DNA from: a virus
Virus record (IMG/VR): IMGVR_UViG_3300045120_000351
Coordinates: 1-57,336 of that record
Direction: 5' to 3' (one strand)
DNA length: 57,336 nt
Made by a program: the position numbers and the translations under genes. Positions 6,455 to 57,336 of this stretch are shown one piece after another. The notes beneath the pieces are model-generated. The model saw nothing but the letters and a program-made list of their open reading frames with translations. It was not told the DNA's origin and ran no database searches. Within the stretch, counting starts at the first letter, position 1; every line of letters starts with the position of its first letter.

Positions 6455-7051
6455 CTACAGCATCGCTTCGGTACTGCCGTTGGCGCTTTTCTTCTGGCGG
6501 CCTTGCTTGCGTGCTGCACCGTCGGCAGCTTCTTTGTCGGGCTCCATCTCGGCGGCTATCTTCTTTTGGCCGTTGAGCCAGACCTTCCGGCCGCGCGTCC
6601 AGGATTTATCCCAGGCGACGAATTCCGGCGTGCCTGCGTCGAAGGGATTGTTCTCACGCGAATGACCGGCCTCGCCGGCTTCATAACCTCGGCTTCCGGC
6701 AACCCACTCGCGTTGCTCCTCCTGCGTCTTCTCGTCGACCGCAGGCGCGTTGATCTCCGAGAACATCTGAAGCTGCGTCACCAATGGTGAGTCGAGCCAT
6801 TGGGCGTAGATGCGGACGTGTTTCAGCTGGAGCTCGGCTTCGTCGATGTCGATGTCGGTCCATTTTTCGATTACTTTCAGCGCATCGAGGTCTACTCCCG
6901 CGTTCTTGGCAGCTTTCTTCGCCCTGGCGACGGCGGTACCGGTCTCCGCATGAGCCTTCCTGGCCTCCTTGATCGTCTTGTAGTGCTCCAGGAACACGGC
7001 CGGCGGCACATTATGCGATGAAGCCTCGGCGACGGTTGTGGCTCGAGCCAT
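6455..7051 (-). CDS. Rmf/CrpP-like motif protein with coiled-coil N-terminus
   Basis: 198 aa, with a purine-rich Shine-Dalgarno (AGGGGGA) ahead of the start. Residues 18-65 are helical and charged (YKTIKEARKAHAETGTAVAR), somewhat like GapR-type DNA-binding proteins. Residues ~122-157 carry the pattern G-x2-A-x2-G-x5-NP-x3-GT...W-x-(W)-x2-G seen in ribosome modulation factor/CrpP-fold proteins. The C-terminus is basic and low complexity. Rmf-like motifs bind ribosomes or nucleic acid in other systems. The role here, possibly shutting down or redirecting translation early in infection, is inference. Confidence 0.55.
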   Translation of the reverse strand: MARATTVAEASSHNVPPAVFLEHYKTIKEARKAHAETGTAVARAKKAAKNAGVDLDALKVIEKWTDIDIDEAELQLKHVRIYAQWLDSPLVTQLQMFSEINAPAVDEKTQEEQREWVAGSRGYEAGEAGHSRENNPFDAGTPEFVAWDKSWTRGRKVWLNGQKKIAAEMEPDKEAADGAARKQGRQKKSANGSTEAML

Positions 7052-53462: not shown

Positions 53463-53627
53463 ATCTGACACCTCCTTGGGTGGCGGATTGCCGCATTCTG
53501 ACAATAAAAGGCCCTAACGGCTTCCCATTTGTCAATGGCTTACCGCATCTTGTGGTCTCGGAGGGTCACATCACACAAGCGAGAAAAGGCTTGAATCCGT
53601 CACAGCTTGTGATGTTTTCTGGCCAGC
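53463..53627. promoter_or_regulatory. Divergent late/accessory control region
   Basis: 165 bases between the leftward late operon and the rightward accessory operon. A perfect -35 hexamer TTGACA is present leftward at 53530-53535 (minus strand), with AT-rich TTTTAT about 20 bases beyond, a weak -10 candidate. It holds an operator-like site at 53599-53613, and a direct GTCACATCACAC at 53565-53576. Confidence 0.6.
53599..53613. promoter_or_regulatory. Operator O3, GTCACAGCTTGTGAT
   Basis: Differs from O1 at two of 15 positions and keeps the GTCAC-N5-GTGA architecture. Located 15 bases before the ATG at 53628, so binding here would affect the rightward accessory operon and perhaps the late promoter. 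Confidence 0.65.
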
Positions 53628-54642: not shown

Positions 54643-54815
54643 TGAGGTGCGGCCACGGCAAGACGATGCACGAGGAGTGCCTCGCCTGCGCCATGATGTT
54701 CCGCATCGAGCAGCGGAAGGACGCTAAGATCGCAGCGCTGGAGGCGGAAGTGGCGCGGCTGCGGTTGTCGGCAAATCTTACACCTTGGTCGAAACCATCA
54801 ACTTCCGCCCCGTAA
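54639..54815 (+). CDS. Small Cys/coiled-coil protein, 58 aa
   Basis: ATG at 54639 overlaps the upstream stop (ATGA). MMRCGHGKTMHEECLACAMM is a potential metal site, followed by a short charged helix (AKIAALEAEVARLRL). Role unknown. Confidence 0.6.
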   Translation: MMRCGHGKTMHEECLACAMMFRIEQRKDAKIAALEAEVARLRLSANLTPWSKPSTSAP

Positions 54816-54916
54816 CCCGTTGATTTGTGGTCGGACGATAACCTTGGCGAGCTTGTTGCGACCTGTGATCCAATGCAGTCGTCCCAATCCGGGGCAACCT
54901 TTGCAAAGGATCTCCA

Positions 54917-55627
54917 ATGCGACACTTCCTACTCGCAGCAACCGCCCTCGGGGCAGTGGCGTTCGCTACCCCCGCCGGCGCCGTGCTGCAAATCTCCGCT
55001 GATATCAACGGCACCTCGTTCACTTGCGCGGACCAAGCCGCTTGCGACACCAACGCGGCCGTCGGCCAGCTTGCCATCGCCAACCAGACCATCGGCGGCG
55101 TCGAGTTCCTGGGTAGCGCCCAGACCCAGGTGATCGGCCCGACCAACTCGCTGAACACCTCCTCCTTTCAGGTCATCAACGACAACGCAGGCGCCGTGCC
55201 CATCACGATCGCCATCAGCGGGACCAATTTCGCCGGCCCCGTTGCCGCGTTTACCGCCAGCGGCTCTGGCACCTTCCAGAGCGCGATCGGCTCCAACGTC
55301 ACCATGACTTTCTTCGGTGACGCGGCGAATACTCAGGGTGCCACGAGCCCGACCGATCTCCCGGGCACGCTGCTCGCGACGATCACGCACGCCGCGACAC
55401 TGGCGACCGACGCGTTTGCCGATAATGCAAATGGCCCGTTCGCCGCTGCAGGGCTCTACAGCATGTCTCTGGGTACCGTAGGCACGCTGACGGCTGGTGG
55501 CTCGCTGGTGGGCCGGTCGCAGGCGATCGTCACTGAGCAGGTTGTGCCAGAGCCGGCCTCGCTGGGCTTGCTGGGCGTCGGTCTGCTTGGCCTCGGCTAT
55601 GTCGCGCGGCGGCGGCAAGCGACCTAA
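54917..55627 (+). CDS. Secreted PEP-CTERM sorting-domain protein 1
   Basis: 236 aa, with AAAGGATCTCCA before the ATG. A Sec signal peptide (MRHFLLAATALGAVAFATPA, with AGA as cleavage site) is followed by a Ser/Thr/Ala/Gly-rich beta-type body with one Cys pair near 37-43. The C-terminus is a complete PEP-CTERM signal: PEP at 211-213, a hydrophobic helix with LLGVGLLGLGYV, and an RRR cluster at 231-233. In bacteria such signals are cut by exosortase and the proteins go to the cell surface or matrix. The window has no exosortase, so the host one must be used. Confidence 0.85.
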   Translation: MRHFLLAATALGAVAFATPAGAVLQISADINGTSFTCADQAACDTNAAVGQLAIANQTIGGVEFLGSAQTQVIGPTNSLNTSSFQVINDNAGAVPITIAISGTNFAGPVAAFTASGSGTFQSAIGSNVTMTFFGDAANTQGATSPTDLPGTLLATITHAATLATDAFADNANGPFAAAGLYSMSLGTVGTLTAGGSLVGRSQAIVTEQVVPEPASLGLLGVGLLGLGYVARRRQAT

Positions 55628-55712
55628 CAACCCGATCATAGGCGTCGCCCTGAGTTGCGTGATCGGCGCGCTGCTCTGGGCGATCGTCCTGATGATCTAC
55701 CTCGCCTTCTGA
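55599..55712 (+). CDS. Small membrane protein between the PEP-CTERM genes, 37 aa
   Basis: ATG at 55599 lies inside the end of the first PEP-CTERM gene in another frame. Product has a basic start (MSRGGGKRPNNP) and one long hydrophobic helix (IIGVALSCVIGALLWAIVLM). No clear Shine-Dalgarno. May help membrane handling of the PEP-CTERM proteins, or be spurious. Confidence 0.45.
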   Translation: MSRGGGKRPNNPIIGVALSCVIGALLWAIVLMIYLAF

Positions 55713-55725
55713 AGGGAAACGACAC

Positions 55726-56532
55726 ATGAAACGCTTACTCTGTACCGCCACCATCGTGGCTGGTGCCGCCTTCTTCCACCCGCCCGCTGCGCACGCCATG
55801 CTGATCGACGATCCGCTGCACGGCCAATGCGTCGTCGGCTCGGCGTTGTGTACTGAAGTCATCGATCCCAGCGGTAACAAGGTCACCACGCTGTTGACCT
55901 CGCCGGGATTCGATGGTGCCAACTACGGGTTTACCATCTCGCCCGGCCCGCAAGGCCCGCAGCCGTTCGCGCTGGTGTTCGCGGTGCCGTCCAATCTGCC
56001 GCAGCCGTCGTTGATCACCACCGGCACGATCAACGGTGTCGCGATCCCGATGTCTGGTACGACCTTCAGCGGTCTCTGGACCAGCGGCTTCCTCGACGCG
56101 CAAACCTCGATCGGAATCGACTTCCCTGGTGCCAAGCCCACCAATCCGATCGACAATTTCCTACCGTTCACCAAGCTGACCGACACCACCGCGACCGGCT
56201 ACGATCTCTATGTCACCGGTCTTGGTAGTCGCACAATCCAGGCTAACAGCGCCGCCAACACCGCTGCGGGTATGCTCGCAGCGATGGACCTAACGACGCC
56301 GAACCTGCCGGTCGGTTCCATCATCTTTGGTTTTTCCAAGGATGATAGTGGCGACTGGATCGCAACCGCCTCGTCGGGCGCGTTGTGGGTAGATGCCACG
56401 ACGGTGGATTGTCCTGGCTGCGGGATCACCCCGGTCATCGTCGACACACCGGAACCGGCATCCCTCGCCCTCCTGGGCTTTGGCGTGCTCGGTCTCGGCT
56501 TCGTAGCGAATCGTCGCCGCAGTACCCCCTGA
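55726..56532 (+). CDS. Secreted PEP-CTERM sorting-domain protein 2
   Basis: 268 aa, with AAGGGAAACGACAC before the ATG. Signal peptide MKRLLCTATIVAGAAFFHPP ending at AHA, then a beta-rich body with Cys pairs (CVVGSALC, DCPGCG). C-terminal PEP-CTERM signal: PEP at 242-244, hydrophobic LALLGFGVLGLGFV, RRR at 263-265. It differs from protein 1 outside the sorting end, so the pair is not a simple duplication. Followed by a strong terminator, so the two form the end of one operon. Confidence 0.85.
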   Translation: MKRLLCTATIVAGAAFFHPPAAHAMLIDDPLHGQCVVGSALCTEVIDPSGNKVTTLLTSPGFDGANYGFTISPGPQGPQPFALVFAVPSNLPQPSLITTGTINGVAIPMSGTTFSGLWTSGFLDAQTSIGIDFPGAKPTNPIDNFLPFTKLTDTTATGYDLYVTGLGSRTIQANSAANTAAGMLAAMDLTTPNLPVGSIIFGFSKDDSGDWIATASSGALWVDATTVDCPGCGITPVIVDTPEPASLALLGFGVLGLGFVANRRRSTP

Positions 56533-56583
56533 TGCGACGATTATCGCCGCGCTGACGTGCAAGGACAGTGGGGCGATAGGATG

Positions 56584-56610
56584 GGGGGCGGCACCGCCAG
56601 TGCCGCCCCC
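56584..56610 (+). terminator. Terminator after the PEP-CTERM operon
   Basis: Perfect ten-base arms GGGGGCGGCA (56584-56593) and TGCCGCCCCC (56601-56610), loop of seven, followed by the T-containing TATTCATTTG. Moderately strong intrinsic terminator just before the ribosome site of the next gene. Confidence 0.7.
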
Positions 56611-56632
56611 TATTCATTTGTGGAGGAAACCA

Positions 56633-56944
56633 ATGGCCGACAGGCAATACCTGGAACTGCTGTCCCGCAAGCTCGCTGACGAGGGACGGCTCGTCGAAGC
56701 AGGCTGGGTGGCGATGCGGATTCAGTGTGTGCCGCACAACGCTCCAGTCTGGCAGCTGCACGACATGCGGATGGCTTATATGGCCGGCGCGCAGCACCTT
56801 TTCGCGTCCATCATGACCATCCTGGACGACGGCGTGGAGGAAACCGAGGCCGATTTGACGCGAATGGACCTCATCGCCAAGGAATTGGAGGTGTTCGCGG
56901 AGGAGCTCAAGCTCCACATGGCCAAGGTCGCAGGGCGAGGCTGA
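56633..56944 (+). CDS. Hypothetical protein, 103 aa
   Basis: Start defined by GGAGGAAACCA before the ATG. MADRQYLELLSRKLADEGRL then MRIQCVPHNAPVWQLHDMRM and an acidic helical C-terminus. Resembles short phage proteins of unknown role found near regulatory ends. It lies after the terminator, so may have its own promoter or be reached by read-through. Confidence 0.7.
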   Translation: MADRQYLELLSRKLADEGRLVEAGWVAMRIQCVPHNAPVWQLHDMRMAYMAGAQHLFASIMTILDDGVEETEADLTRMDLIAKELEVFAEELKLHMAKVAGRG

Positions 56945-56980: not shown

Positions 56981-57029
56981 TTTAGGCGGTTTTCGGCGGT
57001 TTTCGGCGGTTTTCGGCGGTTTTCGGCGG
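56981..57029. repeat. 10-base tandem repeat GGCGGTTTTC
   Basis: Four perfect units from 56985 plus a partial fifth; a diverged half unit precedes them. The period is close to one helical turn, as in iterons or protein-binding arrays. Confidence 0.85.
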
Positions 57030-57290
57030 CCGCCGGTGAACCGATTCCCGATTGACCCCTGCTGTTCCACCACCCCCGGCGAAAATATCGATTTTGCGCA
57101 AGCCCCCACCCGGCCCGGTGGCGGGGGGTAGCGTATATACTTTTAACCCCCCCCCCATGGTCGCGCGCATGCGCGCGCGCGCGGATAAAGTGGCGGATAT
57201 CCGCCATATTTTGCCCGTTGCGTGGCGGGCGGGCGGGCGGGCGGGCGGGCGGATTTTACCCCGTTTTGGCGGGCGGGCGGGCGGCCGGCC

Positions 57291-57336
57291 GGCATCGGGC
57301 GGCATCGGGCGGCATCGGGCGGCATCGGGCGGCATC
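57291..57336. repeat. 10-base tandem repeat GGCATCGGGC at the window end
   Basis: Four full copies and a six-base partial, running to the last base. The window ending inside a tandem array suggests the assembly stopped there or the array is a true terminus. Confidence 0.85.

Follow-up and report, generated by a model that had tools for sequence, protein, structure and literature searches.

The question raised by this locus is why a phage genome should carry two adjacent genes whose products bear the sorting signal of bacterial exosortase substrates, and what these products could do for the phage. The window, i.e. the whole stretch of DNA analysed here, is an entire IMG/VR virus record of 57336 bases. 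It encodes terminase subunits, an HNH gene, an HK97 portal and an HK97 capsid as well as head-protease, tail and recombination genes, which agrees with the sequence-only reading of what is otherwise a phage genome.

The PEP-CTERM genes and their spread over viral contigs

The coordinates, strand and reading frames previously assigned to the two genes, here called P1 and P2 (Table 1), proved exact, and the complete C-terminal exosortase signal read in both is recognised by two models: PF07589 (Pfam, cut-off 20.7) gives 28.6 bits for P1 and 28.4 bits for P2, while TIGR02595 (NCBIfam, cut-off 16) gives 24.4 and 21.6 bits, respectively. No match to the PEP-CTERM model was found in 14 control genomes. 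The genes lie on the same strand, separated by 98 nt; P1 begins with MRHFLLAATALGAVAFATPAGA and ends with VPEPASLGLLGVGLLGLGYVARRRQAT, P2 begins with MKRLLCTATIVAGAAFFHPPAAHA and ends with TPEPASLALLGFGVLGLGFVANRRRSTP. The claim of Sec signal peptides is borne out: called by reading and a crude hydrophobicity rule instead of SignalP, both N-termini are signal-peptide-like, and residues 1-22 of P1 read as an ordinary signal peptide (the structure model has a helix at residues 5-12 of this region), but the automatic rule did not flag that of P1.

Table 1. Positions of the features discussed in the text.
Feature	Record	Position	Strand	Description
Motif 1-like 17-nt sequence TGTCGGCAAATCTTACA	window	54766-54782	+	like published PrsR enhancer site
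Sigma-54 -24/-12 site TGGCGAGCTTGTTGC	window	54845-54859	+	GG-N10-GC; 57 nt ahead of P1 start
P1	window	54917-55627	+	PEP-CTERM protein, 236 aa: signal peptide, beta-sandwich ectodomain, sorting signal
P1 PEP-CTERM sorting signal	window	55544-55615	+	PF07589 match
P2	window	55726-56532	+	PEP-CTERM protein, 268 aa, orphan ectodomain
P2 PEP-CTERM sorting signal	window	56443-56517	+	PF07589 match
Hairpin past P2	window	56579-56615	+	16 bp, terminator-like, weak T tract
Gene X	window	56600-56944		no known family; beyond cassette, orientation reversed relative to G012 and G013
Inverted repeat ATCACACAAG...CTTGTGAT	window	53570-53615		divergent region between HNH and + strand genes
Low-complexity repeats of TTTTCGGCGG, GGCGGGCGG, CGGCATCGGG	window	57000-57336		right end
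Phage protein, 198 aa	window	6458-7051		sub-cut-off match to ribosome modulation factor (PF04957)
Beta-helix protein (PF13229)	L005; L007; L009; L010	11720-13042; 12201-13355; 11704-12852; 11765-12913		
Beta-helix protein (PF13229)	L053; L250; L264	76-1290; 12940-14022; 2626-3714		
Leader CAGGGGCTTCACGTC	L139, L141, L143, L150, L155, L158, L175, L190, L193, L241			

P1 is a real, conserved gene, since dN/dS among its relatives is roughly 0.06-0.3, i.e. they are under purifying selection. For P2 a single, weak relative (31% identity) was found; the candidate L013 was rejected as a short match inside an unrelated ORF, and the fold model of P2 (pLDDT 32) was discarded.

Relatives of P1 that are about 70% identical occur on ten viral contigs, and with an alignment as the query the number rises to 25 (43-72% identity). 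PF07589 was above its cut-off in 13 of the 44 related viral records of our first set, nine of which carry two such genes, so the objection raised in advance, that such genes might be absent from all related phages, does not apply. A PEP-CTERM DNA pattern matched at least 119 viral-contig stretches, and 49 of 50 records from this and related scans passed PF07589; two such genes in tandem are common among the PF07589-positive records. The search of viral contigs with terminase and portal that the sequence-only reading had proposed was likewise productive: four records (G003, G027, G029 and G037) carry a PF07589 gene along with a relative of the window's terminase, in G029 the PEP-CTERM gene lies between terminase and portal, in G048 it ends 2 bases ahead of the portal gene, and a terminase-like gene (identified by reading only) adjoins the tandem pair of both G051 and G052. 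In several phages the PEP-CTERM gene lies amid late structural genes. The terminase matches phrog_2 in 31 of the 61 virus records and is of the phrog_9 type in others. Judged from these sequences, PEP-CTERM genes occur across several phage lineages.

No relatives of P1 were found in 84,980 bacterial and archaeal species genomes, the candidates having been drawn with two short peptide patterns of limited reach (two such patterns gave 25 viral loci). None were found in the cultured phages of INPHARED, plasmids gave a chance match only, and cultured phage records matched neither P1 nor P2. The PEP-CTERM tail alone had no matches in phages and plasmids, but this search is uninformative because plasmids must carry such genes; the query was probably masked by the low-complexity filter. 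Phage PEP-CTERM genes repeatedly have a gene for a right-handed beta-helix protein (PF13229) as neighbour, in many cases convergent with them, and the copies tested had no match in PHROG or INPHARED.

A predicted promoter, a hairpin and the occurrence of the cassette among relatives

In the PrsR/RpoN box published for proteobacterial PEP-CTERM genes, a 17-nt motif 1, which ends in TTTACA and is the enhancer site of PrsR, stands first; a sigma-54 site comes 62.8 +/- 10.6 nt behind it and lies 71 +/- 38.5 nt ahead of the start (Haft 2006, PMC1569441). The motif 1-like sequence of the window ends in CTTACA, i.e. one of its final six bases deviates (the published motif was compared at its 3' end only), and 62 nt separate it from a sigma-54 site that is one of just two strict sites in the window. 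A composite fixed beforehand in the published terms occurs once in the window, as against 0.14 times per shuffled window. By its sequence the region 54766-54859 matches the published box in order and spacing and is a predicted promoter.

The same association is found in the wider collection. Non-redundant strand sequence totalling 4.31 Mb holds 146 strict sigma-54 sites. A PEP-CTERM gene starts 20-150 nt downstream of 13 of these, against an expectation of 0.58 (binomial p ~4e-14), i.e. such sites are about 20-fold enriched ahead of PEP-CTERM genes. A TTTACA-like motif is present with 6 of the 13 sites as compared to 13 of the 133 others (p 0.002). A fuller composite, which is partly circular as it was built after five sites had been seen, was found seven times in 3.04 Mb and not at all in shuffled sequence; in six cases a PEP-CTERM gene follows shortly after, and one of these six sites is new. 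The majority of phage PEP-CTERM genes are without a clear box. The PEP-CTERM genes of phages of about 42 kb have a common leader directly ahead of the start codon, which differs from the box. Elsewhere in the window, the inverted repeat at the divergent region is perhaps an operator.

The hairpin past P2 has a z value of -5.9; its T tract is weak and a stricter scan did not list it. A terminator-like hairpin stands behind the last PEP gene in 19 of 64 cases, as opposed to 12 of 600 random stretches. On sequence grounds P1 and P2 form a self-contained cassette that consists of a host-type predicted promoter, two genes and a terminator-like hairpin.

The similarity of the nearest relatives, G012 and G013, extends over most of the window (identities of 75% and 73% for terminase and of 88% and 85% for capsid, respectively), but neither contains a PEP-CTERM gene; in both, gene X stands close behind the HNH gene. 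In G003 and G037 the PEP-CTERM pair is found in a different region of the genome. The cassette therefore behaves as a moron, i.e. a unit with its own promoter and terminator that is absent from syntenic relatives, even if the T tract is weak and the insertion is not clean: gene X is reversed and lies beyond the cassette in the window, so that an inversion or a more complex exchange must have occurred.

Host, ectodomains and the possible role of the proteins

As had been noted, there is no exosortase gene in the window, and none is encoded in any of the 61 virus records, which rules out a phage-borne enzyme among them, makes processing by the host the likely route and implies dependence on the host exosortase. 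Judging from the PEP-CTERM box, this host would be a proteobacterium that has PrsK/PrsR. A host search with the terminase of the window gave no match among genome contigs, and capsid and terminase had only distant matches, in phages and plasmids of many hosts. A tyrosine integrase was found in only 5 of the 61 records and not in the window, which favours a function in lytic growth over lysogenic conversion, although lysogeny by other routes is conceivable. PADLOC gave no match to a defence system.

Two large ectodomain families can be told apart, A with 30 distinct sequences and B with P1, besides several small ones; with the tail removed the ectodomains match no NCBIfam family. The second gene of the tandem pair is the variable one: unrelated ectodomains are found behind similar P1 genes, and what these second proteins have in common is the signal peptide and the sorting tail. 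A search of solved structures with the sequence of P1 gave no match. P1 is modelled as a beta-sandwich of the jelly-roll type (pLDDT 79.6). Among solved structures the model comes closest to surface glycan-binding protein B, CBM61 and parts of phage tailspikes, with Z about 8-9. The modelled fold resembles carbohydrate-binding modules, but glycan binding is a lead only, because Z values of 7-8 are common background (7kwc gives Z 9.3 and CBM61 Z 8.5, with rmsd 3.1-3.3).

The explanation we prefer is that the cassette is an accessory unit, a moron, by which phage proteins would be shown on the infected cell via the host exosortase, with a block of adsorption as the possible benefit; taken as a whole, we give this reading a little less than an even chance. 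A predicted promoter like those of the host PEP-CTERM regulon, in which a PrsR enhancer site is combined with a sigma-54 site, would drive P1 and P2, and the hairpin would end the unit. Sec would export the proteins, the C-terminal helix would retain them in the membrane, and after processing by the host exosortase they would come to be displayed on the infected cell, in its outer envelope or exopolysaccharide. At that site P1, whose modelled fold is glycan-binding-like, and the variable P2 could coat or mask surface polysaccharide and thereby keep further phages, as well as progeny that encounter debris, from adsorbing. Host processing and display is what we infer from the genes; blocked adsorption as the benefit is a conjecture. 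Several findings speak for this reading, namely the models passed, the P1 family on 25 viral contigs with no relative among the 84,980 genomes, the PEP-CTERM genes of related viral records, the lack of an exosortase in the 61 records, the PEP-CTERM box, the hairpins, the lack of the cassette in G012 and G013, the P1 model near glycan-binding modules, the small number of integrases and the precedent of T5 Llp. Against it, the majority of phage PEP-CTERM genes show no clear box, a host-controlled promoter is an odd and unexpected choice for a lytic phage, the position among structural genes in several phages is late for exclusion, and the similarity of the modelled P1 fold is near background.

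Masking of surface glycans is favoured, and remodelling of the matrix is a close rival. According to the latter, P1 and P2 would resemble the floc protein PepA in their action and either bind exopolysaccharide to the cell or loosen its attachment, so that aggregation and the spread of progeny are changed rather than adsorption. PepA is RpoN-dependent and PEP-CTERM-sorted and moves exopolysaccharide from the soluble to the bound state (PMC9850573), the predicted promoter of P1/P2 is of the same type, the P1 model is near glycan-binding modules, and the beta-helix gene recurs beside the cassette. On the other hand, the ectodomains without tail match neither PepA nor any other NCBIfam family, and on balance we consider this role possible yet rather unlikely.

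It is improbable that P1 and P2 are mere passengers, i.e. host PEP-CTERM genes acquired with their own promoter and carried temporarily without benefit to the phage. The host-type promoter and terminator would fit, as would the fast evolution and spread of bacterial PEP-CTERM genes (PMC1569441) and the fact that G012 and G013 manage without them, but the P1 family is conserved under purifying selection and recurs in unrelated phages while it was not found in genomes. Finally, an assembly chimera, in which 53.5-57 kb would be host or foreign DNA wrongly joined onto a phage contig, was named at the outset as a reason for doubt and might be suggested by the inversion of gene X relative to HNH and terminase as compared to G012 and G013 and by the low-complexity contig end, but it is hardly credible because 25 viral contigs carry P1 relatives, in several cases along with terminase or portal, and because the cassette sits between phage genes (HNH/TerS on one side, gene X on the other) and resembles the remainder of the window in GC and GC3.

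Returning to display by the host exosortase, a broader version can be offered with more reserve: several unrelated, mostly lytic lineages may have taken over the host exosortase route and partly the PrsR/RpoN regulon, so as to coat the cells they infect with proteins specific to phages; the first of these would be conserved and the second exchangeable, which would suit phage-phage contests.

Comparison with known systems

It is instructive to compare the cassette with the bacterial PEP-CTERM/exosortase (EpsH) system under PrsK/PrsR-RpoN control (PMC1569441). The two are alike in the sorting signal and the signal peptide, in the order and spacing of the box and in having modular, fast-evolving ectodomains. 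Unlike the EpsH system, P1 and P2 are phage-encoded and in tandem, the phage is without exosortase, and the ectodomain families were not found in bacterial genomes. PepA (NF033554; PMC9850573) shares the sigma-54 promoter, the signal peptide, the PEP-CTERM tail and a following hairpin; it is, however, a host gene with a role in flocculation, and the ectodomains of P1 and P2 are not homologous to it by NCBIfam. Homology is confined to the tail: P1 reaches 26.6 bits against the whole-protein threshold of 80 bits for NF033554, and there is no match once the tail is removed.

On the phage side, Llp of T5 is a phage-encoded envelope protein that stops adsorption, and like other superinfection-exclusion proteins it is small and located in the outer envelope (PMC9586334), as proposed for P1 and P2. 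Llp is a lipoprotein that acts on FhuA, whereas P1 and P2 are predicted to undergo sorting of the exosortase type. A further precedent is found among cell-derived genes on Yellowstone viral contigs, where 13 cases of TIGR03118 proteins with an exosortase-type C-terminus were ascribed to horizontal gene transfer in one line (PMC11003980). The C-terminus and the viral setting are as here, but the family is different, and pairing, regulation and context are not described. That line was the only mention of phage-encoded PEP-CTERM proteins in the literature searched, which comprised few subscription papers, and no paper in it dealt with PEP-CTERM in viral contigs or as auxiliary genes. Phage surface proteins that alter adsorption are thus a known kind; what is new is the exosortase-type sorting, the promoter of a host regulon and the wide spread among phages. 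Judged by sequence, the host-type PEP-CTERM-box promoter, the hairpin, the spread over phage lineages and the variable second gene go beyond the sequence-only reading. If display proves true, phages of matrix-forming environmental bacteria own a surface-display route that parallels phage lipoproteins. The function of exosortase substrates is largely unsettled even in bacteria, and the ectodomains could then serve as tools both to study it and to find receptors.
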